Source of the DNA: Anaerobacillus sp. CMMVII
Lineage (GTDB): Bacteria > Bacillota > Bacilli > Bacillales > Anaerobacillaceae
Direction of reading: 5' to 3'
Assembly (NCBI RefSeq): GCF_025377685.1
Contig: NZ_JACEHK010000002.1
Coordinates: 587,619-651,618, forward strand
DNA: 64,000 nucleotides
Below, piece by piece: positions 7,886-51,866 of this stretch (within the stretch, counting starts at the first letter, position 1; every line of letters starts with the position of its first letter). Position numbers and translations under genes: made by a program. The notes below the pieces were generated by a model. It was given only the letters and a program-made list of their open reading frames with translations. It did not search any database and had not been told where the DNA came from.

Positions 7886-7987
7886 TTATAGTTTATAGTT
7901 TAGAGTGTATAGTGTAGAGTTATGAAAGCTTCTCAAGAAGAAGCCCTCAGAAACTCTTAACTCTAAACTTTAAACTCTACACTTAAA
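7886..7987. repeat. Heptad-arm inverted repeat element 1 (hemX-hemC)
   Basis: The left arm is a run of 7-base units (GTTTATA, GTTTAGA, GTGTATA, GTGTAGA, GTTATGA), the core is AAGCTTCTCAAGAAGAAGCC, and the right arm is the reverse complement type (GTGTAGA, GTTTAAA, GTTTAGA, GTTAAGA read on the minus strand). The arms can pair into a long stem. It sits inside the hem operon, so it should be in the mRNA. Confidence 0.85.
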
Positions 7988-8001
7988 AATGGGGGTTTAT
8001 C

Positions 8002-8933
8002 ATGAGAAAATTATTGTGGGTTCTAGAAAAAGTCAGCTTGCGTTAACTCAAACGAACTGGGTCATTGACCAGCTAAAAAAGCTTGGCGGTCCTTTTGAAT
8101 TCGAAGTAAAAAAAATCGTAACAAAAGGGGACCAAATCCTAGATGTTACGTTATCTAAAGTGGGCGGTAAAGGCTTATTTGTAAAAGAAATTGAGCAAGC
8201 AATGATGGATAAGGACATCGATATGGCGGTTCATAGTATGAAAGACATGCCAGCAGTTCTTCAAGAAGGACTTACGATCGGGTGTGTTCCGAAACGTGTT
8301 GACCCACGTGACGCTCTAATTTCAAACAGTGGTAAAGGTCTAATGGATCTTGAGCCAGGGACAGTTCTTGGAACAAGTAGTTTACGACGCTCAGCTCAAA
8401 TTTTGGCAAAACGACCAGACTTAGAAATTAAATGGATTCGCGGTAATATTGATTCTCGTATAAAAAAATGTAGAGATGGCGAGTACGACGCAATTATCTT
8501 AGCTGCTGCTGGACTTGAGCGTATGGGCTGGAGTGCAGATGTTGTAACTGAATATATATCTTCTGAATTATGTGTGCCAGCGGTAGGTCAAGGTGCGCTA
8601 GGAATTGAATGTCGTACTGATGATGCCGAATTAAGAGAACTTCTCGCTAAATTTACAGATGAAGTTACAGAGCGTTGTGTGACTGCAGAACGTGCTTTCC
8701 TTCATAAGATTGAAGGAGGTTGTCAAGTTCCAATCGCAGGTTATGCTGAGCTAAACGACAACGGTGAAATCGTCTTAGTTGGTCTTGTAGGATCACCTGA
8801 TGGAAATACAATTTTGCATGAAACATTGGTAGGAACAGATGCCAAAAGGTTAGGGGAAGAAGTAGCTGTAAAGCTCCTTGAAAAGGGTGCAAAAGATATT
8901 CTAGATGCTGTTAAAGCAGAGTTAGATAAATAA
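8002..8933 (+). CDS. hemC: Porphobilinogen deaminase (hydroxymethylbilane synthase), probable frameshift at the 5' end
   Basis: HemC joins four porphobilinogen molecules into hydroxymethylbilane. Visible are [11 protein letters not shown] at the N-terminus, the catalytic Asp region HSMKDMPA, the arginine-rich SSLRRSAQ, and the dipyrromethane cofactor Cys in [11 protein letters not shown] (about residue 240). The ATG at 8002, eight bases after GGGGG, would give the family start [11 protein letters not shown] only if one A is restored in GAGAAAATT (8007-8010). The in-frame alternative ATG at 7989 overlaps the ribosome site and gives an atypical N-terminus. With the repair the product has 310 residues, the usual length. 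Confidence 0.93.
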
Positions 8934-9705
8934 TGACACTCCAAGGAAAGAAAATATTAGTGACGAGGGCAAAGGCACAAGCCTCTGCTCTCTCGTCACA
9001 AATAGAGATAAATGGTGGAATTCCAATTGAGGTGCCACTGATTGTTTGTAGAGAAATGAATGATAAAACGGCAATTCACAACTGCATTAAACTAATACAT
9101 ACATATCATTGGATTGTTTTTACAAGTAAGAATGGTATTGATTTTTTTTACAAGAGTACCAAAAACTAATGGGCAATTTACAACTACCATGCAAAATCGC
9201 AGTTGTGGGTAATAAGACAGAAGATGCATTAGAAACTTATGGTTTAAACGCGGACTTATTACCGGAACTCTTTGTGGCAGAAAGCTTAGCAGAGAGTTTA
9301 GTTAAAGTGTTGAAAAAATCAGAATGTGTCTTAATTCCTCGCGGAAATTTAGCAAGAAATGTAATACCTAAGAAGCTTCGAGAGCATGATATCTATGTAA
9401 AAGAATTAGATGTCTATGAAACGGTCATTGATGAAAAATCAAAAGATCAGCTATATAAGGCGATTAAAAATCAGGAGATTGATGTCGTTACTTTTACGAG
9501 CTCCTCAACAGTCGATAACTTTGTTGAACTATTAGCAGGAACAAATTTTCGAAATTACCTCGAACCAATTATTTTTGCTTCGATTGGACCAATTACAACT
9601 AGAACAATGATGAAACATGATTTACCTGTACATGTACAACCTAAAGAATATACGATAGAAGCCATGCTAAATGGTGTTATGGAAAAGCTAAGGGAGGATA
9701 AATAA
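8933..9705 (+). CDS. hemD: Uroporphyrinogen-III synthase (one apparent frameshift)
   Basis: HemD closes and isomerises hydroxymethylbilane to uroporphyrinogen III. The two-lobed fold is suggested by GKKILVTRAKAQ at the start, WIVFTSKNGIDFF near residue 70, and DVVTFTSSSTVDNF in the second half, the usual landmarks of this poorly conserved family. The start overlaps the hemC stop by one base. The frame breaks in the T8 run at 9142-9149; a ninth T restores FFLQEYQKLMGN and one 257-residue protein of normal length. Confidence 0.9.
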
Positions 9706-10677
9706 ATGATAGAATTTAAAAGACATCGTCGCCTACGTCATACGGCAAATCTACGCTCAATGGTTAGAGAAACAGTGTTGAAGAAAGAGGATTTAATTTA
9801 TCCAATTTTTGTCATTGAAGGAGAAACAAATAAGAAAAATGAGGTTGCTTCAATGCCTGGAGTATACCAAATTTCTCTAGATTTATTAGAAGAAGAAATT
9901 AAGACGATTACAGAACTAGGAATAGTCTCAGTGATCGTGTTTGGAGTACCAAAAGAGAAAGATGAAGTTGGTACATCTGCTTATTGCGAAACAGGAATTG
10001 TTCAACAAGCAATTAAAAAGATTAAAGAACTAAATCATGAGTTAGTGGTCATTGCCGATACTTGTCTTTGTCAGTTTACGAACCACGGACATTGTGGTGT
10101 CATTGAAAATAATATGATCTTAAATGACCCTACTCTTGACTTATTAGCTAAGACTGCAGTTTCTCAAGCAAAAGCAGGTGCAGACGTTATTGCTCCTTCA
10201 AACATGATGGATGGGTTTGTAGCGGCTATTCGTCACGGTTTAGATGAAGCAGGCTTCGCACATGTTCCTATCATGTCTTATGCAGTGAAATATTCGTCAT
10301 CGTTCTATGGGCCGTTTCGTGATGCTGCACATAGTGCACCATCATTTGGTGACCGTAAAACATATCAAATGGATCCAGCTAACCGTTTAGAAGCTCTTCG
10401 CGAAGCTGAAAGTGATGTTCTTGAAGGTGCGGACTTTTTAATTGTAAAACCTGCTCTTTCTTACCTAGATATTATTCGTGAAGTAAAGGATCATTTTTCG
10501 TATCCTGTAGTTGCGTATAACGTGAGTGGTGAATACTCAATGATTAAAGCTGCGAGTTTAAATGGTTGGATTGATGAAAAAGCGGTTGTAATGGAAAAGC
10601 TACTAAGTATGAAGCGTGCTGGTGCAGATTTAATTATTACGTATTTTGCCAAAGACGTTGCTAAGTGGTTAAGTTAG
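9706..10677 (+). CDS. hemB: Delta-aminolevulinic acid dehydratase (porphobilinogen synthase)
   Basis: HemB condenses two 5-aminolevulinate molecules to porphobilinogen. The zinc-binding cysteines are seen in [14 protein letters not shown] (about residues 120-132), and the two Schiff-base lysines in [16 protein letters not shown] (about 195) and [11 protein letters not shown] (about 250). Length of 323 residues is standard. It starts directly after the hemD stop with the AGGGAGG ribosome site inside hemD. Confidence 0.97.
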
Positions 10678-10780
10678 TTTAGAGTTTATAGTGTAGAATT
10701 TAAAGTTGTTTTAGAGAATGCTTCGAGGCAAAACTTACAAACTCTACACTGTACACTTTACACTTTAAACTATAAGGGGG
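10678..10780. repeat. Heptad-arm inverted repeat element 2 (hemB-hemL)
   Basis: Left arm GTTTAGA, GTTTATA, GTGTAGA and related units, core ATGCTTCGAGGCAA, right arm of complementary units (CTCTACA, CTGTACA, CTTTACA, CTTTAAA). Same type and same 7-base period as the element before hemC; again between two hem genes of one operon. Confidence 0.85.
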
Positions 10781-10786
10781 ATTAAA

Positions 10787-12067
10787 ATGAGATCATTTGA
10801 AAAGTCTAGCGCTGCTTTTGCCAAAGCAAAGGAGTTAATGCCAGGTGGGGTAAATAGCCCTGTTCGCGCTTTTAAATCCGTTAAGATGGATCCTGTTTTT
10901 ATGGAACGTGGGAAGGGTTCAAAAATTTATGATATTGATGGCAATGAATACATAGATTACGTCCTTTCTTGGGGACCACTAGTACTTGGACATGCTGATG
11001 AGCAAGTGATTGAGGCATTGAAGAAATCAGCTGAATTAGGTACAAGCTTTGGGGCGCCAAGTGAACTAGAAACGAAGATGGCAGAACTAGTGATTGAACG
11101 AGTCCCGTCTGTGGAAGTTGTCCGAATGGTCAACTCTGGGACAGAAGCTACGATGAGTGCTTTGCGTTTGGCTCGTGGGTATACGAAGCGTAATAAAATT
11201 CTAAAGTTTGAAGGTTGTTACCATGGACATGGTGATTCACTACTAATTAAGGCTGGCTCTGGTGTTGCAACACTCGGTTTACCAGATAGTCCTGGAGTTC
11301 CTGAAGCTGTTGCGATGAATACTTTGACGGTTCCTTATAACGATTTAGAGAGCTTACGTTTTGCGTTTGAACAATACGGTGATGATATTGCGGCTGTCAT
11401 TCTTGAACCTGTTGCTGGAAATATGGGCGTGGTCCTTCCACAACCAGGATTTTTAGAGACGGTTCGTGAAATCACAGAGCAAAACGGAACATTACTTATT
11501 TTTGACGAAGTAATGACAGGTTTTCGCGTAGGCTATCATTGTGCTCAAGGTGTGTTAGGAGTAACACCTGACCTTACATGTTTAGGCAAAGTAATCGGTG
11601 GAGGCCTACCAGTTGGCGCTTACGGAGGTAAACGAGAAATCATGGAAATGATTGCTCCAAGCGGCCCGATTTATCAGGCAGGGACGTTGTCTGGAAATCC
11701 GTTAGCAATGACAGCAGGTTACGAAACTCTTTCACAATTGACTCCAGAACATTATGCTGAGTTTAATCGTCTCGGGAAAAAGCTAGCTACTGGGTTATCT
11801 GAAGCAGCTACCAAATATGGGATTGCTCACAGCACAAGTCAGGCTGGTTCCATGATAGGATTCTTCTTTACCGATGAAGAAGTAACAAATTACGAGAAAG
11901 CAAAAACATCTGATCTAGACCGATTTGCTACTTATTTCCGTTACATGCTAGAAGAAGGTGTGTCATTACCACCTTCGCAATTTGAAGGTATGTTCCTATC
12001 AACCAAGCATACAGATGAAGACATCGAAAAACAATTGCTGCCGCTGACAAGGCGTTTGCTAAATTAG
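10787..12067 (+). CDS. hemL: Glutamate-1-semialdehyde 2,1-aminomutase
   Basis: HemL converts glutamate-1-semialdehyde to 5-aminolevulinate, a PLP enzyme of aminotransferase class III. Seen are the N-terminal [11 protein letters not shown] signature, [17 protein letters not shown], and the PLP lysine in [18 protein letters not shown] (about residue 265). Length of 426 residues is typical. The start follows an AAGGGGG ribosome site. It is the last hem gene before a large terminator-like structure. Confidence 0.97.
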
Positions 12068-12087
12068 TTAAATAATAGGAAATATAA

Positions 12088-12191
12088 AGACTGACCAAAA
12101 AAGTCGCCTACCTTGAATGGAACTTATTCATTTTTTGAATGAGATTTGATTAGTTGGGGTATAGGATACTAATTACGGTCAGTTTTTTTGT
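12088..12191 (+). terminator. Probable terminator of the hem operon
   Basis: ACTGACC (about 12091) and GGTCAGT (about 12178) close a stem-loop with an inner hairpin (TTCATTTTTTGAA), followed by TTTTTTT. The branched shape and long loop are unusual, so the exact fold is uncertain. Confidence 0.5.
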
Positions 12192-12337
12192 GGAAATTTC
12201 TTGATGCGAATATCGAAAAAAGCGCGTATTTTGTCTAAAGGTAGGTAAAAAGTCATGTAAAGTTATGGCAAAACGGTGCATAACTTGTAAAAAATGAGCG
12301 TTTTTAACTAAATATAGCTTTTAACAAAGCAGTAAGC

Positions 12338-12346
12338 TGATATAAT
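12338..12346 (+). promoter_or_regulatory. Extended -10 promoter of the pilus cluster
   Basis: TGATATAAT fits the extended -10 consensus TGNTATAAT about 60 bases before the pilin start; no good -35 is seen. The rest of the 12192-12406 gap shows no gene. Confidence 0.55.
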
Positions 12347-12406
12347 AAGTTGTAAAGCTTAGAAAGTCTCGAAAAATATTAAAACAAAAGGGAGAGGTAA
12401 TAAAAC

Positions 12407-12766
12407 ATGTTTAAAGCACTTATTCAACGTCTTAGAAAAGATCAACGTGGATTAACACTCATCGAGTTATTAGTAGTTATTGTTATTTTAGGGATTATTG
12501 CAGCGATTGCAATTCCGATGGTGATGGGGAATCAACAAACTGCTAATGCTAACACTAATGCGCAAAATAGAGCAATTCTTCAAGATGCTGTAAATAGGTA
12601 TAAAGTAATTAATAACGTAACTACTCTACCTTCTACAGGTATAGATTTAACTGCAGATGTTGATGGTGGTCCTTATATTGAAGCAATTCCTACATGTGCA
12701 GAAAATGCAACTCCATTTGTAGTGGCTGATACTGTAATAATCCCTTCAGGTTGTCTTGCACCATAA
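12407..12766 (+). CDS. Major type IV pilin (ComGC/PilA-like)
   Basis: The 119-residue protein has a short basic leader and the class III prepilin cleavage site QRG^LTLIELLVVI with Glu at +5, followed by a long hydrophobic helix that packs in the pilus core. The C-terminal part is small and has a DVDGGPYIEAIP turn and two cysteines (TCAE and SGC) that could form the closing disulfide. A strong GGGAGAGG ribosome site and its own terminator downstream suggest the highest expression of the cluster, as expected for the major subunit. It begins the pilus cluster. Confidence 0.9.
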   Translation: MFKALIQRLRKDQRGLTLIELLVVIVILGIIAAIAIPMVMGNQQTANANTNAQNRAILQDAVNRYKVINNVTTLPSTGIDLTADVDGGPYIEAIPTCAENATPFVVADTVIIPSGCLAP

Positions 12767-12775
12767 GTATTTATT

Positions 12776-12813
12776 AAAAGCTGTCGCTACGCTTAGATAG
12801 CGGCAGCTTTTTT
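12776..12813 (+). terminator. Hairpin terminator after the major pilin
   Basis: AAAAGCTGTCGCTA pairs with TAGCGGCAGCTTTT around an 8-base loop and is followed by T residues. It may let some transcription pass to pilD and the minor pilins, which would set pilin excess. Confidence 0.85.
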
Positions 12814-12850
12814 AAAATTAGTCCGAATCGAGAAAGAAAGGAAGAACATT

Positions 12851-13603
12851 ATGCTACTCATTGATATCTATGTCATCGTATTAGGATTACTATTAGGTAG
12901 TTTTTTTAATGTTGTTGCTATTCGATTGTTAAAAAATCAATCGGTCTCCTTTCCGCCTTCTCATTGTCCAAGCTGTAAGCATAAACTTTCCGTTTTTGAT
13001 TTATTTCCGGTAGTAAGCTATCTACTCTTACGTGGGAAATGTCGATATTGTAAAACGAAAATTTCCTCGCTTTATCCAGTTGGTGAAATGCTAACAGCTA
13101 CCTCAATTTTTGTCGTGTATAAGGTTGTCGGTTTGACACCTGAATTAATTCCTGCACTGATTTTAACGATTGTACTAATACTAGCTGTCTTAACAGATAT
13201 TCGCGAGAAACTAATCTTAGATGTGATCACATTTCCTGCTTTAGCTATTTTGCTCATTTTGCGATTTTTCATTGGCAGTGAGCCTTTTTGGTTTTATTTA
13301 GTTGGAGGAGTCGTTGGATTTTCTTTGCTCCTACTAATTGCAATTGTCAGTAAAGGAGGCATGGGCGGCGGAGATATTAAGCTCTATGCAGCCATCGGTG
13401 TCGCACTTGGACCATGGATGACGATCATGAGTCTCGTCCTTGCGTCCTTTGTTGGAACAATTGTAGGGATTACATTAATTGCCATAGGGGTATTAAAGCG
13501 TAAAGAACCTATTGCATTCGGCCCATTTATTTTTATCGGAACACTTGCCGCTTATTTGGTCGGTGAGGAAATATGGTATTGGTATATGAGTTTTATTTGG
13601 TAG
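12851..13603 (+). CDS. pilD: Prepilin peptidase (PilD/ComC type)
   Basis: An integral membrane aspartic protease that cleaves and N-methylates prepilins. It has the N-terminal zinc domain with two CxxC pairs (HCPSCKHKL and CRYCKTK), the first catalytic Asp in LTDIREKLILD, and the second in GGGDIKLYAAIG, with about seven membrane segments; 250 residues is the usual length. In B. subtilis the orthologue comC lies between folC and spoIIB; here that place is empty and the peptidase is inside the pilus cluster. Confidence 0.93.
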   Translation: MLLIDIYVIVLGLLLGSFFNVVAIRLLKNQSVSFPPSHCPSCKHKLSVFDLFPVVSYLLLRGKCRYCKTKISSLYPVGEMLTATSIFVVYKVVGLTPELIPALILTIVLILAVLTDIREKLILDVITFPALAILLILRFFIGSEPFWFYLVGGVVGFSLLLLIAIVSKGGMGGGDIKLYAAIGVALGPWMTIMSLVLASFVGTIVGITLIAIGVLKRKEPIAFGPFIFIGTLAAYLVGEEIWYWYMSFIW

Positions 13604-13614
13604 GAGTGAGGAAA

Positions 13615-14061
13615 TTGAAGAATGAAAAAGGTGTTACCCTCATAGAACTCTTAGTCTCTATCGTATTGTTAGGCATGATTATTGTCCCATTGCTTATGAT
13701 CATGACGGGGACCTCAACTCGTACTGTCACACAGGAGAGAGAAACAGGTAATTCATATATTGCCCAAGAGGTAATGGAGAAAGTTAGAAGTGGAAACGTT
13801 CGTTATCTTCTTCCTAATGGTCACTACTGTGCTAGTAATACTAGTGCATGCCAGGATCTTTTACCACTTCCGTTTGCTACAGAATTAGGTTTAGGGGATT
13901 ATCAGATCGTTGAGGTAGTAGTTGAAACATATTCAGATAATACGTCCTTTCATGAAGTTACAGTTATTGTCAGAAATGATGACAGGATTTCCTATGGTAC
14001 TGGAGACTTAGTTGAAAAGGAAAACCGTATTGAACTGATAACGGTGGTGAAACAAAAATGA
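13615..14061 (+). CDS. Minor pilin-like protein (PilV/GspI-like)
   Basis: Starts with TTG at 13615, five bases after GGAGTGAGG, giving MKNEKG^VTLIELLVSIVLLG, a clear prepilin signal with Glu +5. Longer frames upstream overlap pilD and hide this signal. The remaining domain contains EVMEKVRSGN and a pair of cysteines about residues 77 and 84. Overlap of its stop with the next start (ATGA) indicates translational coupling. The precise minor-pilin type is inferred from order only. Confidence 0.82.
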   Translation: MKNEKGVTLIELLVSIVLLGMIIVPLLMIMTGTSTRTVTQERETGNSYIAQEVMEKVRSGNVRYLLPNGHYCASNTSACQDLLPLPFATELGLGDYQIVEVVVETYSDNTSFHEVTVIVRNDDRISYGTGDLVEKENRIELITVVKQK

Positions 14062-14513: not shown

Positions 14514-14531
14514 AGAGGAGATATAAAAACG

Positions 14532-28859: not shown

Positions 28860-28889
28860 GTTAGTACATATTTTAATATAATATACATG

Positions 28890-29226
28890 CTTTGATTGGG
28901 AAGAGTACATCTGTAATGCCAATAGAGAGAAAAATCATGTTTTTAGTTGGGCTAAATATCAGCTAAAACCATTGCTGAAAGATTTTTTTGGAGCTAAAGA
29001 TGGAAGGTCGCCCAGGAGCAGCTTAATTGAAAGTAAAGCTTTGCAGGGAAAAGCACTACACTTTTTCCTAGGTCACTTACGCTTTTCGGAGTAGATTAAG
29101 CCGGTTAAGTAACCGTTATAAGAATGAAGTGTGCTCTCGATAAAGGTATGACTATCGATTGCAAACAAAGGTGGTACCGCGAATATACTCTCTTCGTCCT
29201 TTGAGGATGGAGGGAGTTTTTTTATT
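28890..29226 (+). ncRNA. T-box riboswitch leader of valS
   Basis: The T-box AAAGGTGGTACCGCG (29167-29181) is diagnostic of tRNA-sensing leaders. Stem I features are seen: AGAGTACA near 28901, AGAGAGA near 28924, TGCTGAAAG near 28974 and a candidate valine specifier GTC in AAGGTCGCC near 29007. A stem-III-like hairpin CGATA...TATCG precedes the T-box, and the terminator ACTCTCTTCGTCCT/AGGATGGAGGGAGT with T7 (29187-29224) follows. Uncharged tRNA-Val should stabilise the antiterminator. The middle part (about 29012-29100) holds sequence shared with a genomic repeat (see that entry). Confidence 0.92.
29040..29092 (+). repeat. Repeat segment inside the T-box leader
   Basis: CAGGGAAAAGCACTACACTTTTTCC... 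then AGGTCACTTACGCTTTTC closely matches 48991-49038 (CAGGGAAAAAGCACACTATA, CTTTTTCCTAGGGCGCTTGC). It is the 3' half of the GTCTAGCTCC/GGCGCTTGCGC repeat family and lies between stem I and the stem III of the valS leader. Confidence 0.7.
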
Positions 29227-29229
29227 TTA

Positions 29230-29326
29230 GTTATGAGTTATGAGTGTTGAGTTATGAGTTGTTAAGTAATTCTACGAAGCAAATCCTATATTAACTCAAA
29301 ACTCAAAACTCAACACTGCATTTAAG
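29230..29326. repeat. Heptad-arm inverted repeat element 3 (valS leader)
   Basis: Left arm GTTATGA, GTTATGA, GTGTTGA, GTTATGA, GTTGTTA; core ATTCTACGAAGCAAA; right arm of complementary ACTCAAA, ACTCAAA, ACTCAAC units. It is placed between the T-box terminator and the valS ribosome site. Confidence 0.85.
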
Positions 29327-36711: not shown

Positions 36712-36892
36712 CGCTCTTTTCTAAGATTGTTGCTATTAGCTTTTAGGTCGTAACCAAGCGAATGCTTGGTTCTTCACGCTTTGCGTGAAGCTTTTGAGAA
36801 TAAATAAGCCATTGGGACAAATAAATTTGTCCCAAAAAGCTTATTAATTCTCAAAAGACGACCTAAAAGCAACAAAGTTTACGAAAACAGCC
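36712..36892. mobile_element. MITE-like element 2 with 8-bp target duplication and three inner hairpins
   Basis: Ends: left CGCTCTTTTCTAAGATTGTTGC, right (inward) GGCTGTTTTCGTAAACTTTG. TTCTATTA is directly repeated at 36704-36711 and 36893-36900. Inside are ACCAAGCGAATGCTTGGT, CTTCACGCTTTGCGTGAAG and a longer stem starting GAGAATAAATAAGCC, so nearly the whole element can fold. No coding capacity. A nearly identical copy in the opposite orientation starts at 46619. Confidence 0.87.
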
Positions 36893-39920: not shown

Positions 39921-40610
39921 ATGGAAGGGAAGCCATTAATGATTCGTGATGTTCCATATTGTGAAAGACCGAGGGAACGTTTAATTTCAGAAGGAGCTCA
40001 CGTGTTATCGAATCAAGAACTAATCGCAATTATATTAGGAACAGGTACAAAGCAAGAATCAGTTTTACAATTAGCACAAAGAATTTTGCACCATTTCCAT
40101 GGGTTACGACTATTAAAGGATTCCTCGGCAACAGAATTAAAAGAAATAAAGGGGATTGGTAACTCGAAGGCAGTACAATTGTTAGCAGCATTAGAGTTAG
40201 GCAGCCGTGTACATAAGCTTCAGCAAGAAAATCGAATAATCATTCGTTCTCCTGAGGATGTCTCGCGGTTTATGATGGAGGAAATGCGTTTTCTAACACA
40301 AGAGCATTTCGTAGCATTATACTTAAATACGAAAAATCATGTGATCCATAAAAAGACAATTTTTATAGGTAGTTTAAATGCTTCCATTGTTCACCCACGT
40401 GAAATCTATAAAGAAGCTTTTCGTCACTCAGCAGCTTCAATTATCTGTCTTCATAATCATCCAAGTGGAGATCCTTCTCCCAGTAAAGAAGACATTGAAG
40501 TAACAAAGCGTCTAGTCGAGAGTGGTAAAGTCATTGGCATTGAATTATTAGATCACATCATTATTGGTGATAAGAAATTTATTAGTTTGAAGGAGAAAGG
40601 CTACGTTTAA
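39921..40610 (+). CDS. radC: RadC-family JAMM protein
   Basis: About 230 residues: a helix-hairpin-helix region (LKEIKGIGNSKAVQLLAALELG) and the JAMM/MPN+ metal site HNHPSGDPSPSKED (about 175-188). The family is widespread but its function is unsettled, and a repair role has not been confirmed. ATG at 39921 follows AAGGAGGAG; a GTG three bases earlier is possible. Confidence 0.93.
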   Translation: MEGKPLMIRDVPYCERPRERLISEGAHVLSNQELIAIILGTGTKQESVLQLAQRILHHFHGLRLLKDSSATELKEIKGIGNSKAVQLLAALELGSRVHKLQQENRIIIRSPEDVSRFMMEEMRFLTQEHFVALYLNTKNHVIHKKTIFIGSLNASIVHPREIYKEAFRHSAASIICLHNHPSGDPSPSKEDIEVTKRLVESGKVIGIELLDHIIIGDKKFISLKEKGYV

Positions 40611-40725
40611 GTTATGAGTTATGAGTTATGAGTTATGAGTGATAAGTTGTTTTTTGGTAAGACTTCAAAGCGCTACAAATAAAAACTCAACACTCAAAAC
40701 TCAATACTCATAACTTAACACTATC
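40610..40725. repeat. Heptad-arm inverted repeat element 4 (radC-mreB)
   Basis: Left arm has four near-perfect GTTATGA units then GTGATAA; core GACTTCAAAGCGC; right arm complementary units (AACTCAA, CACTCAA, AACTCAA, TACTCAT, AACTTAA). It is the most regular copy in the window. Confidence 0.87.
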
Positions 40726-42761: not shown

Positions 42762-42763
42762 CG

Positions 42764-43354: not shown

Positions 43355-44035
43355 ATGTTAAAAACAAACTATGTAACAATTCGAGGAACCAAAGAAGGCC
43401 TAATCTTATATTTGGACGACGAGTGTTCGTTTTCTGAACTTGTCAGTGAGCTTGAAGAGAAGCTTTCCTCAAATTATCCACAAATTTCAGAAGGGCCAGC
43501 TGTACATGTAAAAGTTTCGGTTGGGAATCGTTATCTTTCAGAGCCCCAAAAGGAACAATTAATATCAATTATTAGTGATCAGCAAAAGCTTGTAATAAAC
43601 CAAATAGAATCGAACATTATCACGAAACAAGAGGCAGAAAATTTACAAAAAGAAGCCCAAACTGCTACGATTATAAGAGTTATTCGTTCTGGTCAGGTGT
43701 TAGAAGTCAAAGGGAATCTACTCCTACTAGGAGATGTTAACCCTGGTGGAACAGTTGTTGCTACGGGAAACATTTATATTTTGGGTGTCTTACGTGGGAT
43801 TGCTCATGCAGGAAGTGAGGGTGATTCCGAAGCCGTGATTGCTGCTTCAAAAATGGAACCATCACAATTGCGTATCGCAGAAATTGTTAGCCGGTCACCT
43901 GATACGAAAGACAATGAAAGCCATGACATGGAATGTGCTTATGTTGGTTACGATAATAAAATTGCCATAGAGAGAATACAACAAATGGGTAAAATACGCC
44001 CAGGAATAACAAACGTTACAAGTTTTGAGTTATGA
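43355..44035 (+). CDS. minC: Septum site-determining protein MinC
   Basis: FtsZ-assembly inhibitor. N-terminal domain (YVTIRGTKEGLILYLDDEC) and C-terminal beta-helix domain with GDVNPGGTVVATGNIYILGVLRGIAHAG (about 125-150) are clear. ATG at 43355 lies nine bases after AGAGGTGA; an in-frame TTG at 43349 is too close to it. About 226 residues, usual length. Confidence 0.96.
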   Translation: MLKTNYVTIRGTKEGLILYLDDECSFSELVSELEEKLSSNYPQISEGPAVHVKVSVGNRYLSEPQKEQLISIISDQQKLVINQIESNIITKQEAENLQKEAQTATIIRVIRSGQVLEVKGNLLLLGDVNPGGTVVATGNIYILGVLRGIAHAGSEGDSEAVIAASKMEPSQLRIAEIVSRSPDTKDNESHDMECAYVGYDNKIAIERIQQMGKIRPGITNVTSFEL

Positions 44036-44130
44036 GTTATGAGTTGTGAGTTAGTTTTGGTAGGGTTCCGAAGCTTTGCTATTAAATAACTCTAAACTCA
44101 ACCCTCAAAACTTAAAACTCAATTAGAAAG
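44028..44130. repeat. Heptad-arm inverted repeat element 5 (minC-minD)
   Basis: GTTATGA, GTTATGA, GTTGTGA, then core TTCCGAAGCTTTG and right-arm units CTCTAAA, CTCAACC, CTCAAAA, CTTAAAA, CTCAATT. The left arm begins inside the minC stop (the last codons encode FEL-stop), so the element has been accepted at the gene end. Confidence 0.85.
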
Positions 44131-44141
44131 GGGAGTTTCGC

Positions 44142-44939: not shown

Positions 44940-44960
44940 ATTGTTATAATCCAATCTTTC

Positions 44961-44992: not shown

Positions 44993-45009
44993 ATCATTTT
45001 TGGCCAGAA

Positions 45010-45046: not shown

Positions 45047-45066
45047 TGAATGGTTACTTTTTAAAA

Positions 45067-45101
45067 GGCTGTTTTCGCAAAGTTTGTTGCTTTCGTAAAA
45101 A
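45067..45101. mobile_element. Left part of a MITE-like element split by the IS
   Basis: GGCTGTTTTCGCAAAGTTTG followed by TTGCTTTCGTAAAAA is nearly identical to the start of element 1 (33417). The copy continues on the other side of the IS at 46511 with CGTAAAAATCCCAAAAGCC. Confidence 0.85.
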
Positions 45102-45219
45102 GATGGTATAAAATATTTTGTGTAAGACATAAATGGCCAAAATTTGGAGTCTCCAAAAAATAAAAAAGTAGGGTATCCTCGGAATTGCGACATCCCAAAC
45201 AGAGAGGAAAAACCCTACT

Positions 45220-46386
45220 ATGAAATCTATTATACCTGCTAACGAATTTACGAATCAACTTGAAGATTTAGTAAAAAACTTTTTAAAAGATAAAATGGAG
45301 CTATACTTAAAAGAAGAAATTAAGAATTTTATTGAAGTAGAGAAACCTGATCAAGGGCTTCAACGTAACGGTTACTATGAAAGGTCATTGGACACAAAAT
45401 ACGGTAAAATTGAGGATATTTCTGTACCTCGTGACCGCCAAGGAGAATATAAGACTCAATTATTTGAGCCTTACAAGCGTAGAGATGGTTGGTTAGAAGA
45501 AGCCATTATTCGTATGTACCAAACTGGGATGAGCACCCGTGATGTTGGTAAGTTTGTAGAAAGAATGGTCGGCTCAACTTACTCCGCGACAACGATTAGT
45601 AATATAACGGAAGTTGTGCATCAAGATATTGAAGCTTGGCAAAAACGTCCGTTAAATAAGAGATATTCTGTACTATATTTAGATGGAATGTATATTAAAG
45701 TTCGCCGAGATACGGTGGATAAAGAAGTTGTCTATGTTGTCATGGGGGTAAATGAAGATGGTCACCGTGAAATTCTAGCCTTTTACGTAGGGGGACGTGA
45801 GAGTTCAACTGGATGGCATACTATTTTAGCAGATTTGTATACGCGAGGTTTAAGAGAAGTTTTATTAGGAGTTTTTGATGGATTAAGCGGCCTCGAAGAG
45901 GCTTTCCTAGCTGTGTATCCTAAAGCTGATGTACAGCGTTGTGTGGTTCACAAAGTAAGAAATACCTTAAACCAAGTACGAAAAAAAGACCAAGTTGACA
46001 TATCTGAAGGATTGAAGTTAGTTTATAAATCTCCAACAAGAGAAATCGCTCAAATTCAATTTGAGAAGTTTAAAGAAGAATGGTCTAAAAAGTATCCAAA
46101 AGAAGTTCAATCCTGGGAACAGGATCTGCCAGTGTTATTGACGTTTATGAAATATCCTATGGATATCCGATCTGGTATTTATACAACTAATTGGATTGAA
46201 AGAACAATAAAAGAGTTTCGAAAACGTGTAAAACCAATGAATAGCCTACCTGATATTAAAGCAGCTGAGAAGATCTTGTATCTAACAGTTAAATCGATGA
46301 ATGACAAATGGTCAACTAGAATATCTGCTGGATTTGCACAATCAAAATCAAAGTTACAAGAAATGTTTACTGAACGATATAACTAA
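45220..46386 (+). CDS. IS256-family transposase, intact
   Basis: 388-residue DDE transposase. Visible are the family motifs GYYERSLDTKYGKIEDISVPRD-like start (about 45-70), first catalytic Asp in LYLDGMYIKVR (about 155), second Asp in LLGVFDGLSGLEEAF (about 222) and the Glu in TTNWIERTIKEFRKR (about 330), with CVVHKVRN between. ATG follows GAGAGGAA. No frameshift, so the element may still move. Confidence 0.96.
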   Translation: MKSIIPANEFTNQLEDLVKNFLKDKMELYLKEEIKNFIEVEKPDQGLQRNGYYERSLDTKYGKIEDISVPRDRQGEYKTQLFEPYKRRDGWLEEAIIRMYQTGMSTRDVGKFVERMVGSTYSATTISNITEVVHQDIEAWQKRPLNKRYSVLYLDGMYIKVRRDTVDKEVVYVVMGVNEDGHREILAFYVGGRESSTGWHTILADLYTRGLREVLLGVFDGLSGLEEAFLAVYPKADVQRCVVHKVRNTLNQVRKKDQVDISEGLKLVYKSPTREIAQIQFEKFKEEWSKKYPKEVQSWEQDLPVLLTFMKYPMDIRSGIYTTNWIERTIKEFRKRVKPMNSLPDIKAAEKILYLTVKSMNDKWSTRISAGFAQSKSKLQEMFTERYN

Positions 46387-46396
46387 AAAATGGAAA

Positions 46397-46443
46397 AATT
46401 TTCAGTCATGTACGGGCTCCCCTGCCATACATGACTGAAAATT
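46397..46443 (+). terminator. Strong hairpin after the transposase, inside the IS
   Basis: AATTTTCAGTCATGTA pairs perfectly over 16 bp with TACATGACTGAAAATT around a 15-base loop. It may stop transcription or block read-through into the transposase from the flank. Confidence 0.7.
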
Positions 46444-46510
46444 CAGAAAATAACTAAAGTAATTCATAGGGCCCTACTTTTAATGCTTACACAAAATACT
46501 TGACGCTACC

Positions 46511-46618
46511 CGTAAAAATCCCAAAAGCCTGATTTTTACACATAAACACTAAGATAGCAGGATAAATCTTATAAAAATTTTGAGAGATTAAACATGATTG
46601 TTTTGTTTCTTTTTTATT
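46511..46618. mobile_element. Right part of the IS-split MITE-like element
   Basis: Continues the copy from 45067: GTAAAAATCCCAAAAGCC and GATTTTTACACATAAACACT match element 1 for about 50 bases and then diverge. The right terminal repeat is not seen, so the copy is decayed or truncated. Confidence 0.7.
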
Positions 46619-46790
46619 GGCTGTTTACGTAAACTTTGTTGCTTTTAGGTCGTCTTTTGAGAATAAATAAGCCATTGGGAAAAATTTATTTGTCTCAATG
46701 GCTTATTTATTCTCAAAAGCTTCACGCAAAGCGTGAAGAACCAAGCATTCGCTTGGTTACGACCTAAAAGCTAATAGCAACAATCTTCTC
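46619..46790. mobile_element. MITE-like element 3, inverted copy of element 2
   Basis: GGCTGTTTACGTAAACTTTG at the left and AGCTAATAGCAACAATCTT at the right; the body is the reverse complement of 36712-36892 with only scattered differences, including both small hairpins. The right tip has diverged and no target duplication is seen. Confidence 0.82.
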
Positions 46791-46800
46791 TTAAGAAGGT

Positions 46801-47066
46801 GCTTCGAAGCCTCTTTTGATCATTCTCGAGTACCACAGAACTTTAACCTCTACACTTTAAACTAATTAGCATATCCTACCCGGACAAGTCATATCTATTA
46901 ATTAATGAATTATGAATTGCTTGAAGTTGCTTCAAGGCTAAGATTACTCAATGAAAATCATAAAAAATTACTTTTAAGAGCTATCTACAAAATTGGATTT
47001 TACGCTACTTTACATCTTCGAGTAACTCGCAAAACTTTACACTTTAAATTTTACACTCTACACTAA
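46801..47066. repeat. Decayed compound heptad-arm element 6 (before spoIVFA)
   Basis: A perfect core GCTTCGAAGC (46801-46810) is followed by arm units CTCTACA, CTTTAAA (46848-46861), and a second set CTTTACA, CTTTAAA, TTTTACA, CTCTACA (47033-47062). A TTGCTTCAAGGC core is at 46927. It looks like two merged copies of the GTNTAGA type. Confidence 0.65.
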
Positions 47067-47084
47067 AAAAGGGGATGAATATAG

Positions 47085-47873
47085 ATGGCGAACAGGGTCG
47101 ATGAAATTCGTCGAAAAATTCAAGCAAGACGAAGAAAGATTAGTAGTGAAATAGGTAGAAAAGAGCGTTCACAACCGCAATACTATCCTAGTCATAGTGA
47201 ATCAAGAGATGACACGGATTATTATTTTCCTAGTAGTGCAAAAGGAGCAGGAGAACCAGAAGAGAAATTGTTTCGAAAAGATATTTTAATGTTTCAAATC
47301 TTAACAGCCGTTTGCCTGTTTTTAATTGTTGGAATATTATTCAGAACGCAAATACCACAACTTGAGGGGGCAAGGCAATTTGTAAAAAATTCATTTGAAC
47401 AAGAATTTCAATTTGCGACTGTTGCCAATTGGTATGAGGATCAATTTGGAAAGCCGTTAGCTTTACTTCCGACGACAAGAGATGTAGCATTAGAAAATCT
47501 TGAAGGAGAAGAATTAAATGTAGCTTATGCAGTACCCGCCACTGGTCGAGTGACAAAAAGCTTTGATCAGGATGGGAAAGGTGTAATCATCGAGACTGTA
47601 TCAAATTCAAATGTAGAAGCTGCCAAAAGTGGCATGGTACGTTTTGTTGCTGAAGAGGAAACGCTAGGTAAAACAGTAATTATTGCTCATTATGATGGTG
47701 GAGAGTCATGGTATGCAATGCTCGATAAGGTTGAAGTCAATCTCTATGATCACATTGAGGCTGGTAAAAAAATCGGAACAGTTTCATTAAATGACAATAA
47801 AGGTTTCTATTATTTTGCGTTAAAAGAAGGAGAAACATTTATCAATCCTCTTGAAGTGATTTCCTTTGATTAA
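47085..47873 (+). CDS. spoIVFA: Stage IV sporulation protein FA
   Basis: 262 residues: basic cytoplasmic start, one membrane segment (MFQILTAVCLFLIVGILF, about 68-86) and an external LytM/M23-like domain (GRVTKSFDQDGKGVIIETV to the end) that lacks the metal-binding His/Asp set. SpoIVFA holds SpoIVFB inactive in the mother-cell membrane until SpoIVB cleaves it. ATG follows AAAGGGGATG. Its end overlaps or abuts spoIVFB. Confidence 0.93.
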   Translation: MANRVDEIRRKIQARRRKISSEIGRKERSQPQYYPSHSESRDDTDYYFPSSAKGAGEPEEKLFRKDILMFQILTAVCLFLIVGILFRTQIPQLEGARQFVKNSFEQEFQFATVANWYEDQFGKPLALLPTTRDVALENLEGEELNVAYAVPATGRVTKSFDQDGKGVIIETVSNSNVEAAKSGMVRFVAEEETLGKTVIIAHYDGGESWYAMLDKVEVNLYDHIEAGKKIGTVSLNDNKGFYYFALKEGETFINPLEVISFD

Positions 47874-47874
47874 T

Positions 47875-48732
47875 ATGATTTCATTATTAAAAAAAATAAA
47901 AATAAATCCTCTTTTTTGGTTTGTTATTGGTATAGGTGTTTTAACTGGATACTTTCGAGAAGTAATTATGGTATTTAGTATCGTTTTTATACATGAAATG
48001 GGTCATAGCGTAGCGGCCCATTTTTTTCAGTGGCGGATTCGTAAGATCGAATTATTACCTTTCGGAGGAGTCGCTGAGGTTGAAGAATATGGAAATCGAC
48101 CTTTAAAAGAGGAATTTATCGTCATCATTTCAGGCCCAATCCAACATATCTGGCTAATCGCCTTGTCTTATCTTTTACTTCCTTTTGAATTTTGGACAAT
48201 CAATGACCACCAAATGTTTATTATGCATAATTTGATGATTTTATTATTTAATTTATTACCCATTTGGCCTTTAGATGGAGGGAAGCTTTTGTTTTTATAT
48301 TTTTCAACGAAGCTACCGTTTCAAAAAAGCCTTGATAAAACACTAAAGAGCTCGCTATTTTTATTATTTCTATTTACAGTCGTAAGTATTTATTTGTTTC
48401 CATTTCACCTAAATCTTTGGATAGTTATTTTGTTCCTACTTTTTAGTCATTATTTTGAATGGAAGCAACGAAGCTACGCTTATATGCGTTTTCTAATGGA
48501 GCGTTACTATAAAACGGAAAAACCCTTCGCTGCAACCGTGCCAATTGTTGTTTCGGCACACCTAACAGTGCAAGATGTATTAAAAACATTTAGACGTGGC
48601 GTTAAACATAAGATTGTTATTAAAAATGATTCAATAGCACCTAGAAAAATACTTTATGAGAAAACAGTTTTAAAAGCATTTTTTGAACAAAAAAAAGCAA
48701 ATAAGCCAATAAGTAGTCTTCCGTATCAGTAA
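47875..48732 (+). CDS. spoIVFB: Intramembrane metalloprotease SpoIVFB (pro-sigma-K processing)
   Basis: Site-2 protease family. HEMGH metal motif lies in VFIHEMGHSVAAHFF (about residue 40), the third ligand in NLLPIWPLDGGKLLF (about 133) and the C-terminal CBS-like domain covers the last 80 residues. ATG at 47875 gives a start like B. subtilis; an in-frame TTG at 47866 overlapping spoIVFA is possible, and neither has a strong ribosome site, which suggests coupling to spoIVFA. It activates sigma-K. Confidence 0.95.
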   Translation: MISLLKKIKINPLFWFVIGIGVLTGYFREVIMVFSIVFIHEMGHSVAAHFFQWRIRKIELLPFGGVAEVEEYGNRPLKEEFIVIISGPIQHIWLIALSYLLLPFEFWTINDHQMFIMHNLMILLFNLLPIWPLDGGKLLFLYFSTKLPFQKSLDKTLKSSLFLLFLFTVVSIYLFPFHLNLWIVILFLLFSHYFEWKQRSYAYMRFLMERYYKTEKPFAATVPIVVSAHLTVQDVLKTFRRGVKHKIVIKNDSIAPRKILYEKTVLKAFFEQKKANKPISSLPYQ

Positions 48733-48782
48733 AACTTTGGTATTTTAACAAATAATGTTATAATTATATAATGTAAATCGAG

Positions 48783-48811
48783 ACCAGCCAAAGTAAAACG
48801 GCTGGTTTTTT
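48783..48811 (+). terminator. Terminator of spoIVFAB
   Basis: ACCAGCC pairs with GGCTGGT, with a 10-base loop and T6. Confidence 0.88.
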
Positions 48812-48844
48812 CTTAGAAGATATCAATTAATAAATATCTTAGGT

Positions 48845-49041
48845 GATGTCTACCGCAAGCACCTAAGTTCCACGAGGTCAAAAACACGTGATCACTTAAA
48901 CGCTGCCTCTGTGGTCCGGTATGTGCTCGAGGCAAAGCTGCATGTAGTAACATTAGAAGGAACACATGCTGTGACCAGTTCAGTAGCTTTTACAGGGAAA
49001 AAGCACACTATACTTTTTCCTAGGGCGCTTGCGCTTTTCTT
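48845..49041. repeat. GTCTAGCTCC-type repeat copy before rng
   Basis: Starts GATGTCTACCGCAAGCACC..CCACGAGGTC and ends CCTAGGGCGCTTGCGCTTTT, the ends of the family seen at 37267-37391. Inside, GAGGTCAAAAACACGTGATCACT, and AACACATGCTGTGACCAG are loosely complementary. The 3' half is shared with the valS leader. Confidence 0.7.
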
Positions 49042-49067
49042 ATTATGGTTTAGAAGAAGGGATACAC

Positions 49068-50551
49068 ATGAAAACATTCATCTTTAATATGCTAACTAAT
49101 GAACGACGGCTTGCAATTTTAGAAAATAAAAAGGTAGTTGAGATATTAATTGAAAGACCTGATATTAACAAGATAGTTGGAAATGTCTATAAAGGGAAAG
49201 TGGTAAATGTACTTCCTGGGATGCAAGCAGCCTTCGTAGATATTGGTCTTGATAAGAATGGGTTTTTGTACCGTGACGAGTTAGTAAGCTTCCAGCGCTC
49301 GATAGAAGCAGACGAATCAAAAAAGGAGCGCTCAATCTCTCAATTCCTCACAGTAGGACAAGAAGTATTAGTCCAAGTTACGAAAGAAGGCTTTGGAAAG
49401 AAAGGACCAAGACTCACTGAAGTCGTTTCGTTTCCTGGTAAATACATTGTCTACATGCCTAATGCTGGTTATGTAGGAGTATCAAAAAGAATGCAAAAAG
49501 AAGAAGTACGAGAACATTGGCGAACGATTGGAATAGAGCTTTGTCAAGGTGAAGAGGGAATGATCATTCGAACAGCTACTGAAGGATTAACAAAGGAAAA
49601 GGTCGCTCAAGATTTATTTTCCTTAGGAAACTTTGGGAGGACGTTTGGAAAGAAGGAAAGAGTCTTAAACCGCCGCAACTCATTCATGAAGACAACTCAA
49701 TTTTAGAAAAGGTAGTCCGTGATATTAACTTTGATGAAGTAGAAGAAATTTATATTGATACAATGAAGGATTACTTGCTGTTAAAGGAAATGTTTACTCC
49801 ATTTCCTGAGCTACTAGAGAAACTTCATTTTTATCAGAAACGTGAAAACATATTTTCACACTTCCATATTGAGGCGGAGCTAGATAAAGCAATGCGTCGG
49901 CAAGTGTGGTTAAAGAGTGGTGCGTATTTAGTCATTGATCAAACAGAAGCGTTAACCGTTTTTGATGTAAATACAGGCAAATTTACAGGGAAATTAGATC
50001 TACAAGATACGATAGTTAAAACAAATATTGAAGCAGCCAAAGAAATTGCTAGACAATTGCGCTTGCGAGATATTGGTGGAATTATTGTCATAGATTTTAT
50101 TGATATGAAGCAGGATAAAGACAAAGAAACAGTGATGAGTGTTCTTACAACGTTATTGAAAAACGATCGAACCAAAACAAATATTCTTGGATTTACTGGA
50201 TTAGGATTATTAGAAATGACCCGAAAGAAAGCACGTCAAAACCTACAGGATAGTGTATCAACAGTTTGTCCGACATGCCTAGGTAAGGGGAAAGTCCTTT
50301 CTGATGAGGCGGTAGCACATAAGGTTGAAAGAGCACTATGGGAATATAAAGGGATGGATAGTGATGCGCTACTTGTTGAGGTACCACCGAATGTCGTGTC
50401 ACTTCTAAAGGGCGAAAAGAACGAACATATAAGTCGGTTAGAAAAAGCCCTCCATTATCAGATTTTCGTTAAAGCCAGCCAATCGCTTACTCCAAACGAA
50501 TTTGCCATCCGTTTTGTCGGTAGTGTAGATGAAGTTCAGTCTAGAGTTTAG
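49068..50551 (+). CDS. rng: Ribonuclease G/E family endoribonuclease (one apparent frameshift)
   Basis: N-terminal S1 RNA-binding domain (KIVGNVYKGKVVNVLPGMQAAFVDIG), then the DNase I-like catalytic part with metal Asp residues in ALTVFDVNTGKFTG and IGGIIVIDFIDMKQ, and the Zn-link CPTCLGKG. It cuts AU-rich RNA, including rRNA precursors. The frame breaks at about 49635 (TTAGGAAACTT); one extra base gives LGKLWEDVWKEGKSLKPPQL and 494 codons, normal for RNase G. ATG 49068 follows AGAAGGG. B. subtilis 168 has no RNase G/E at this site. Confidence 0.92.
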
Positions 50552-50552
50552 T

Positions 50553-50638
50553 GTTATGTGTGTTGAGTTAAGAGTTAAGTGTGATAAAGCTTCGAAGCAA
50601 TTCTTTTAAACATCTCAAAACTCAAAACTCAAAACATC
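50553..50638. repeat. Heptad-arm inverted repeat element 7 (rng-rplU)
   Basis: Left arm GTTATGT, GTGTTGA, GTTAAGA, GTTAAGT, core AAGCTTCGAAGCAATT, right arm CTCAAAA x3. It lies just upstream of the rplU promoter, so unlike other copies it ends the rng transcript. Confidence 0.82.
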
Positions 50639-50639
50639 A

Positions 50640-50668
50640 TTGACTCTACTCAAGAAAAATGGTAAGAT
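50640..50668 (+). promoter_or_regulatory. Sigma-A promoter of rplU-prp-rpmA
   Basis: TTGACT (50640-50645), 17-bp spacer, TAAGAT (50663-50668). Confidence 0.8.
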
Positions 50669-50684
50669 ATTTTTTGTTAGTTAT

Positions 50685-50790
50685 TTGGATAACCTCCAAA
50701 GAGCTATAACCGCTCTTAAAAGGGTTAAAGATTTTATCCAAGGGATTTCCTTAGGTAAAACACCCTCATTGGCGAGTCTGAGTATAATAA
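50685..50790 (+). ncRNA. L21 leader (ribosomal autoregulatory leader)
   Basis: The 5' region before rplU has GGATAACCTCC and GGGTTAAAG, GATTTTATCC with complementary stretches and a sequence GCGAGTCTGAGTATAATAAG before the Shine-Dalgarno site. The layout agrees with the L21 leader known upstream of rplU in Firmicutes, thought to bind L21 or its partner; the fold was judged by eye. Confidence 0.65.
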
Positions 50791-50804
50791 GGAGGTGCAC
50801 GTAA

Positions 50805-51113
50805 ATGTACGCAATTATTGAAACTGGTGGAAAGCAAATCAAAGTTCAAGAAGGTCAAGAGATCTACATTGAGAAGTTAGATGCTGAAGTTGGTGAAACA
50901 GTAAGCTTCGACAACGTATTATTAGTTGGTGGAGACTCTGTTAAAGTAGGAGCTCCATTCGTAGAAGGAGCAACTGTAACAGCTAAAGTTGAAAAAGTAG
51001 GTCGCGCGAAGAAAATCTTAGTTTATAAGTACAAAGCTAAGAAGAACTACCGTCGTAAGCAAGGTCATCGTCAACCTTACACTAAAGTTGTTATCGAAAA
51101 GATCAACGCGTAA
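50805..51113 (+). CDS. rplU: 50S ribosomal protein L21
   Basis: 102 residues; [24 protein letters not shown] at the start and the basic C-terminal [17 protein letters not shown] are family hallmarks. It binds 23S rRNA together with L20. ATG follows AAGGAGGTG. Confidence 0.99.
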
Positions 51114-51121
51114 GGTATCGT

Positions 51122-51454
51122 ATGATTACGGTAAAAGTTGTTCGCGAATCTGACAACAACATTCGTTCTTTCGAAATGAGTGGTCATGCCAATAGCGGAC
51201 CACATGGACAAGATATTGTTTGTGCTGGAGCTTCAGCCGTTTCATTTGGAACTGTTAACGCAATCGATACATTATGTAATGTTCAGCTTGAAGTTGATAT
51301 GGACAACGATGGTGGCTTTCTCCGCTGCACAGTTCCAACCGATTTGGACGTGCAAACATATGAGAAAGTACAGCTTCTATTAGAAGCAATGGTTGTATCA
51401 CTCACTTCTATTGCTGAGCAGTACGCTAAACATATTAAAATTAGGGAAACCTAG
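51122..51454 (+). CDS. prp: Ribosomal-processing cysteine protease Prp
   Basis: 110 residues with the catalytic His in MSGHANSGP (about residue 22) and Cys in DIVCAGASAVSFG (about 34). Prp (YsxB in B. subtilis) removes the N-terminal extension of L27 before ribosome assembly. It lies between rplU and rpmA, and the matching substrate motif is present in the next gene. Confidence 0.95.
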   Translation: MITVKVVRESDNNIRSFEMSGHANSGPHGQDIVCAGASAVSFGTVNAIDTLCNVQLEVDMDNDGGFLRCTVPTDLDVQTYEKVQLLLEAMVVSLTSIAEQYAKHIKIRET

Positions 51455-51467
51455 GAGGTGAATTCAC

Positions 51468-51758
51468 ATGTTAAAAATGAACCTTCAATTTTTCGCATCG
51501 AAAAAAGGGGTAGGTAGTACAAAGAACGGTCGAGACTCAATGTCAAAACGTCTTGGTACAAAGCGTGCTGACGGTCAAACTGTAACTGGCGGATCTATTT
51601 TAGTTCGTCAACGCGGTACACGTATTTACCCAGGTGTAAACGTAGGTAGAGGTGGAGACGACACTTTATTTGCTAAAGTTGACGGCGTGGTTAAGTTTGA
51701 ACGCGTTGGTCGTGACAGAAAGCAAGTAAGTGTTTACCCAGCAGCTCAAGAAGCATAA
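51468..51758 (+). CDS. rpmA: 50S ribosomal protein L27 with cleavable extension
   Basis: 96 residues. The start MLKMNLQFF^ASKKGVGS has the Prp cleavage motif after FF that Firmicutes use, so mature L27 begins at ASKKG. The central [20 protein letters not shown] is typical. Follows AGGAGGTG. Confidence 0.98.
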
Positions 51759-51768
51759 TCTCTAAAAT

Positions 51769-51799
51769 AAAGTCCTAGCCATTTGGTTAGGACTTTTTT
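51769..51799 (+). terminator. Terminator of rplU-prp-rpmA
   Basis: AAAGTCCTAGCC pairs with GGTTAGGACTTT (one G-U pair), 4-base loop, then T6. Confidence 0.93.
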
Positions 51800-51810
51800 G
51801 CATATAATAA

Positions 51811-51866
51811 TGTAGAGTTTAAAGTTTGTGAAAGCTTCCCTAAGATGCCAAAAATGACTCTTCACT
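51811..51866. repeat. Short decayed heptad-arm element 8
   Basis: GTAGAGTTTAAAGTTTGTGA, core AAGCTTCCCTAAG, then only one right-arm unit (GACTCTTCACT) before the next ribosome site. A truncated member of the GTNTAGA type. Confidence 0.6.

Follow-up and report, generated by a model that had tools for sequence, protein, structure and literature searches.

The 64,000-nucleotide stretch of Anaerobacillus sp. CMMVII studied here (positions 587,619 to 651,618 of contig NZ_JACEHK010000002.1; hereafter the window) carries a series of intergenic hairpins whose arms are built of degenerate 7-base units. They lie in spacers near genes for RadC, MreB, MinC, a MinD-type ATPase, an M23 peptidase, RNase E/G and L27, near a T-box and an L21 leader assigned by Rfam, and near genes that we take, from standard gene order, to be hem, valS, spoIVFA, rplU and rng. 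The full element is about 98 nt long and consists of about five heptad units, a core around GCTTCGAAGC, and then complementary units. The units fall into two subtypes, TA (AGTKTAG) and ATG (AGTTATG and its kin). An earlier note on this DNA had ascribed one shared design to eight spacers. A covariance model trained on 18 copies, two of them from the window, finds a full element in six of these, whereas the cluster upstream of the M23-peptidase gene consists of half-elements and the copy downstream of the L27 gene is a relic (Table 1). The core was compared with GCTTCGAAGC in 118 copies from five genomes, restricted to cores of 18-45 nt; the best match covers 10 letters in 44 copies and 9 in 41, figures to be read with no null run for this match and with AGT and ARTKWWR search rules that favour these motifs by construction. 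At the gathering score, Rfam reports in the window the T-box and L21 leader alone, both off the elements. A known RNA family was rejected: ten further loci, scanned at E up to 0.1, brought up RNase P and, for copies of one stretch (L003), two mir-1303 hits below threshold that are taken as chance.

Table 1. Heptad-armed elements and their remnants in the window (z, folding score)
Feature	Position	Model match	Setting	Remarks
Full element, TA subtype (AGTKTAG)	7890-7983	7890-7983	hemX-hemC spacer	z -5.1
Full element, TA subtype	10676-10771	10676-10771	hemB-hemL spacer; start overlapped by hemB stop codon	z -3.8
Full element, ATG subtype	29229-29324	29229-29324	T-box leader (28883-29204) to valS start	z -5.0
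Full element, ATG subtype, six units per arm	40610-40722	40617-40715	begins at radC stop codon	z -6.7
Full element, ATG subtype	44021-44119	44021-44119	minC-minD spacer; minC end inside units	z -7.1
Cluster of half-core and right-arm pieces	46801-47066	none	5' of M23-peptidase gene at 47085 (spoIVFA position)	nine right units; read by eye
Full but degenerate element	50545-50645	50545-50645	RNase E/G gene to L21 leader (50698-50789)	z -2.4
Short relic	51811-51866	none	between L27 gene and next gene	two left units, right arm absent

Beyond the window too, these arms are far more frequent than in Markov-resampled sequence. In 247 kb of DNA from this strain, a set enriched by construction as it joins the window to stretches picked around BLAST hits, runs of three or more heptads number 56 for AGT and 51 for ACT. 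When this sequence was resampled five times under a first-order Markov model, the two kinds together came to 4, 0, 0, 1 and 0 runs. The strict 7-base period described earlier is borne out. The AGT run stands on the left in 40 strict pairs of this set, and the reverse order at pair distance is seen only between neighbours of a tandem array in L015 (L numbers denote single stretches or loci). Ten copies tested for folding gave z scores of -2.4 to -8.8. Evenly spaced samples contain 8 pairs per 400 kb both in the genome of this strain (G000) and in G003, one of six other Anaerobacillus-group genomes compared (G001-G006). This corresponds to about 20 pairs per Mb, or roughly 100 per genome, in counts that, like those of position below, may include copies seen twice in overlapping stretches or tandem arrays; only these two samples are evenly spaced, the rest of the own-genome set being partly picked around BLAST hits. 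Many runs are unpartnered, the even G000 sample holding 17 left and 15 right runs for its 8 pairs. Period-7 arrays number 32 in Anaerobacillus regions (one place counted twice) and 0 in 77 other hem loci. Comparison of hemC loci agrees in assigning the window to Anaerobacillus.

Most elements sit close to the end of the preceding gene. Of the 82 copies placed, tandem spacers hold 61, convergent ones 8 and divergent ones 6; the other 7 are at stretch ends. The hairpins had been described as intergenic and mostly between same-direction genes, and this is true of 61 of the 75 classified copies, but it is no enrichment over the background of 503 in 604 spacers. Nearness to the stop codon, and not a preference for tandem spacers, is the special positional feature. 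With gene ends taken from a simple open reading frame (ORF) finder, 47 of the 61 tandem copies start within 15 nt of the upstream stop codon, the next gene starts within 25 nt of the element end in 31, and both hold in 26; in 23 the element overlaps or supplies the stop codon. Placement within the spacer is accordingly uneven in the 34 copies with at least 30 nt of free room, 17 of which lie in the first tenth, 6 past nine tenths and none between 0.30 and 0.93 (Kolmogorov-Smirnov p = 2e-9). At one site the same C-terminus ends with TGA in G002 and with a TAG or TAA made with the first unit in G000, G003 and G001, so the gene end there is natural. The idea that the heptad exists to provide a three-frame stop cassette was rejected: a stop codon is present in every one of the 32 ARTKWWR heptads when repeated in tandem, the observed heptad shares are close to column-shuffled ones, and tandem AATTACG units of the viral hairpins described below contain none, so that such a cassette is no general cause. 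An intrinsic terminator was also rejected, as no U-tract follows the right arm (T 22-34% and A 43-58% at +1 to +6 in 95 copies). The placement, together with the strong folding and the missing U-tract, fits a functional RNA hairpin selected at each operon junction as a 3'-untranslated region (UTR) or intercistronic insulator, stabiliser or coupling device, a reading further favoured by the occupation of the same spacers in relatives.

The arms themselves speak against such selection. Both arms of a copy agree in subtype (TA versus other) in 55 of the 58 distinct G000 copies (Fisher 8e-13; 57 of 61 before removal of duplicates) and in 116 of 120 copies over five genomes, and the agreement of the two subtypes between arms asserted in the earlier note is hereby upheld. 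The copy-by-copy complementarity claimed beside it finds no such support. Similarity between units that pair in register (0.739) does not exceed that between units shifted by one or two steps (0.738-0.757). When the right arm is taken from another copy of that genome and subtype, the fold is slightly better than with the native arm (-33.7 versus -32.3 kcal/mol, p = 0.002, 109 copies), and swapped core halves make no significant difference (-5.7 versus -5.4, p = 0.12). Compensatory covariation was thus not found, and pairing follows from what the subfamily has in common, with no visible upkeep in individual copies. Self-homogenisation of each copy, as proposed in the earlier note, is not needed, since subfamily descent together with whole-element replacement would account for the subtypes, even though length changes of 7 bases are directly observed.

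The comparison with relatives shows where elements are shared, where they are missing and where they differ. In the region around the window, heptad arms occur in G003 in all six spacers that hold an element in G000 (strictly paired in four, interrupted or without strict pairing in the other two), in G001 in five of five testable spacers (two strict pairs, three single arms or remnants), and in G005 in five of five testable spacers, all paired, with hemX-hemC additionally seen in L037. The remaining spacers of the compared region contain no pair in any genome. G004 has no pair in five testable spacers, with two right-type units in minC-minD, and G002 has no ARTKWWR unit in five spacers, its hemB-hemL spacer holding by eye a hairpin of AGTTGGA units. 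The hemX-hemC spacer measures 27 nt in G002, where it lacks the element, versus 118-121 nt when filled, the minC-minD spacer 18 nt in G002 versus 109-115 nt, and a third site 130 nt versus 228-235 nt. A second region contains six paired spacers in G000, of which G003 shares four and G001 four, while G002 has no pair there; G003 and G001 each have one paired spacer that G000 does not have, and elements of G003 occupy a spacer of only 41 nt in G001. The two element-poor genomes, G002 and G004, retain the gene order of the compared region, and near absence by model from two of seven congeners with the same gene order adds to the arm data in making a selected RNA hairpin an unlikely explanation.

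Even where a spacer is occupied in several genomes, the occupant may differ. In minC-minD the unit is AGTTATG in G000, AATGTAG in G003 and G001, AATTTAA in G005 and AGTTTTG in G006. The last two genomes are 81-90% identical over long alignments, and eight of their sites gave five clear orthologues, two cases of unrelated elements in the same spacer and one site that was not anchored. The orthologues show gaps of 7, 7 and 28 nt, and one array is much longer in G006. The unrelated elements occupy minC-minD, where the same borders were shown, and hemX-hemC, which was not anchored in the border alignment. We read these cases as the exchange of entire elements, superimposed on normal inheritance and slippage. 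In the radC-mreB and rng-rplU spacers of G005, half-elements of AGT and AAT type are stacked, as if elements had entered or replaced each other at the core. Slippage with hairpin template switching, in which heptad arrays expand during replication and one arm serves as template for the other without any mobility, would account for the 7 and 28 nt gaps and for the long uniform arrays, and 7-nt repeats are reported to be the commonest long simple repeats in most genomes, tentatively through polymerase slippage (Mrazek 2007, cited in PMC4679880). By itself, however, it explains neither the units and core shared by many unlinked loci, nor how arms and core alike can be wholly different at one site, nor the like heptads in unrelated viral contigs, and we consider it a still weaker candidate than RNA selection when acting alone.

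The explanation that we favour, with a chance of being correct that we would put near even, is a high-copy family of non-autonomous palindromic intergenic elements, similar to miniature inverted-repeat transposable elements (MITEs) and repetitive extragenic palindromes (REPs), placed at gene ends and arriving or replacing one another whole. Each copy would arrive, or displace an older one, in one piece belonging to a single subfamily, and both arms would share their subtype for this reason. The subfamilies and concordant arms, the short spacers where the element is missing, the differing occupants of shared spacers, the 7-base gaps, the nearness to stop codons, and the half-elements and core inserts all favour this view. 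Copies would settle at gene 3' ends, at the stop codon or a few bases from it, or just before the next ribosome-binding site. Once in place, the heptad arms would lengthen and shorten in 7-base steps and the halves would mutate independently. A newer subfamily, probably AGT, would take over sites held by another, AAT; both this order and the spread by copying are what we infer from the present distribution. In mRNA, a hairpin between stop codon and next gene would be at least harmless and might insulate or stabilise the upstream message.

The element has the terminal inverted repeats of a MITE. Other observations weigh against mobility. Target-site duplication, of TA or of any other kind, was rejected as an insertion signature: in 120 copies, flank repeats of 2-9 nt are no commoner than between shuffled partners. 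No border motif beyond A/T richness was found in 95 copies, and no larger copy with its own enzyme was seen in the part of each genome read. One copy used as query has no near-identical full-length copy elsewhere in the genome (next best 78%), and near-identical copies occur only in tandem (L015), so that a recent burst is not in evidence. Nor would a generic transposon account for the placement at stop codons, and the change of element at one site could instead reflect independent insertion at a preferred site, in-place rewriting or conversion. In the stretches read there are 24 arm pairs with gaps of 62-679 nt; no transposase was seen in the seven inspected by eye. Foreign DNA lies in the element core at L257 14970-15260, L194 9000-9410 and L268 4600-4910, and the first two inserts are flanked on both sides by CTTCGAAG or GCTTCGAAGC-like stretches, so that half-elements result. 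The core may be an insertion hot spot.

Mobilisation of REP-like elements by a Y1 transposase, of the REP-associated tyrosine transposase (RAYT) or IS200 kind, was rejected and appears highly improbable. REPs are palindromes of 20-40 bp with a GTAG or CGTC motif at one end, the GTAG type being linked to RAYTs, and they resemble the present element as high-copy extragenic palindromes mostly 3' of coding regions (PMC3733652); in the genome of this strain Y1_Tnp is matched seven times, and three of these matches have a RAYT-like score and length. The transposases nevertheless do not track the elements: G005, which is only 80% complete, has at least 102 model matches and no Y1_Tnp match, and G004 has 17 Y1_Tnp matches versus at least two model matches. 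The three RAYT-like loci (L033, L034, L035) carry, by eye, palindromes of other kinds nearby, of the GTGTCTGACACC, GGGGTCTGACCCC and GTGGGGACGGTTCT classes. The defining features of REPs that were tested also fail, the element being about 98 nt long and its ATG-subtype units AGTTATG and AGTTTTG lacking GTAG and CGTC; GTAG does occur inside AGTGTAG units. The RAYT-like gene of L033 is flanked by two very similar copies of another ORF.

In the genomes scanned, model matches outside the genus are rare. Covariance-model matches (E up to 0.01), counted on both strands, number at least 149 in G000 (at least about 75 loci), 124 in G003, 102 in G005, 97 in G006 and 71 in G001, and at least 2 in G004 and 1 in G002; by this model, five of the seven genus genomes are element-rich and two almost empty. 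At E 1e-4, matches appear in 6 of 199 genomes drawn from the order, namely the five rich Anaerobacillus and one other with three weak matches, the single one of which that was read is a heptad hairpin. A gapless heptad array was found in 5 of 398 Bacillota genomes, with 19 matches in the own genome and five in all in four others, a result to be set beside a backward-read control pattern that also matched in 2 of the 398; the five places outside the own genome look like direct arrays. G002 has an array type of its own, AGTRGAA (29 forward and 28 reverse matches), which by eye sits in hairpins of different design. Apart from one at 482 kb, those of these arrays (L151-L180) that lie up to 1.30 Mb are on the + strand, whereas from 1.47 Mb onwards they are on the - strand; their orientation seems to track chromosome or gene direction. 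In the metagenome-assembled genome G006, contigs end within about 300 bases of an element at L243, L249, L250 and L251, as if assembly had stopped there.

Similar hairpins exist in viral contigs. Exact AGTTATG triple arrays were found in 15 viral-contig stretches and TA-type arrays in 3, and hairpins with GAGTT arms in 2 and GAATT arms in 9 stretches, some from the same contig or sample; the TA-type hairpin pattern and the GAATT pattern with reversed polarity gave 0 in the viral contigs. GC content at the 11 hairpin loci ranges from 40 to 63%, several of the hairpins can be seen to follow a stop codon and precede the next start, and their cores do not resemble GCTTCGAAGC. One such stretch had no match in a phage collection. 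A distance of 15 nt or less separates 12 of 21 viral arrays from an ORF stop codon and one from a gene start, a count that is suggestive only, since an ORF running into an array ends there by itself. The viral hairpins are like in kind and either homologous or convergent. It is conceivable, if doubtful, that all belong to a widespread unrecognised class of heptad-armed palindromes common to unrelated bacteria and phages, targeted to stop codons and spreading or being exchanged in place, without target duplication, by a novel machinery.

Two further features of the window deserve mention. A second palindromic repeat family occupies two spacers, 36791-36857 and 46654-46719, with CTTTTGAGAATAAATAAGCCATTGGG arms that are 85% and 94% complementary and adjoin GCTTCACGC/GCGTGAAG-type letters. 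Reading frames seem broken near 8002-8010 (hemC start), 9140-9170 (5' part of hemD) and 49706-49763 (RNase E/G gene), each about one base short relative to congeners, through either sequencing error or real change.

Various heptamer repeats and MITE-like elements have been described in other bacteria. Cyanobacteria have 7-bp short tandemly repeated repetitive (STRR) sequences, for instance at hupS-hupL and hoxW of Nostoc/Anabaena; these are described as folding into hairpins between genes, for which roles in transcript stability or translational coupling have been suggested (PMC2670836). The likeness to cyanobacterial heptamer repeats drawn in the earlier note thus holds, with tandem 7-bp units in intergenic DNA able to form hairpins, whereas pairing as inverted arms, which it had thought peculiar to this case, is reported for STRRs too. 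The Anaerobacillus element differs in its phylum, its defined unit of about 98 nt, its shared core, its subfamilies, its stop-codon placement and the differing elements at the same site, in a comparison made by description. The TAACTGA heptamers of Beggiatoaceae, some cyanobacteria and Bacteroidetes (MacGregor 2015, PMC4679880) are likewise intergenic, carry stops in all three frames, in some cases overlap the upstream stop codon and are patchy across phyla; they differ as direct repeats of another unit, mostly just 5' of start codons, only one set in the genome studied being inverted, and no core was noted for them in PMC4679880. The MITE-like repeats bcr1-bcr3 of Bacillus cereus are also intergenic in Bacilli and often lie in operon spacers or UTRs (PMC3446304), but, compared by description, they are other families in another group, and no heptads were noted for them there. 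BrickBuilt of Porphyromonas gingivalis is a MITE-like intergenic element that contains a minisatellite, differing in its 23-nt repeat body, its small inverted ends, its distance of at least 49 nt from genes and its promoter activity (PMC4596501).

Six heptad strings had no match in the literature texts searched, which cover part of the literature, and no name for the family was found in them. Intergenic heptamer repeats of bacteria are an old observation for which no mechanism is agreed. The striking parts of the present case are the placement at stop codons and the unrelated elements at the same site in sister species. It is tractable, as each genome holds roughly 100 copies, the subfamilies are clear, orthologous sites occur both with and without an element, relatives are rich or poor in it, and its position follows a sharp stop-codon rule; both the spread of heptamer repeats and any action on mRNA become directly testable. 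We would class the element with the intergenic heptamer-repeat hairpins of cyanobacteria, as a variant with MITE/REP-like behaviour; should the viral hairpins belong to the same class, that class would be far wider than the published examples compared here.

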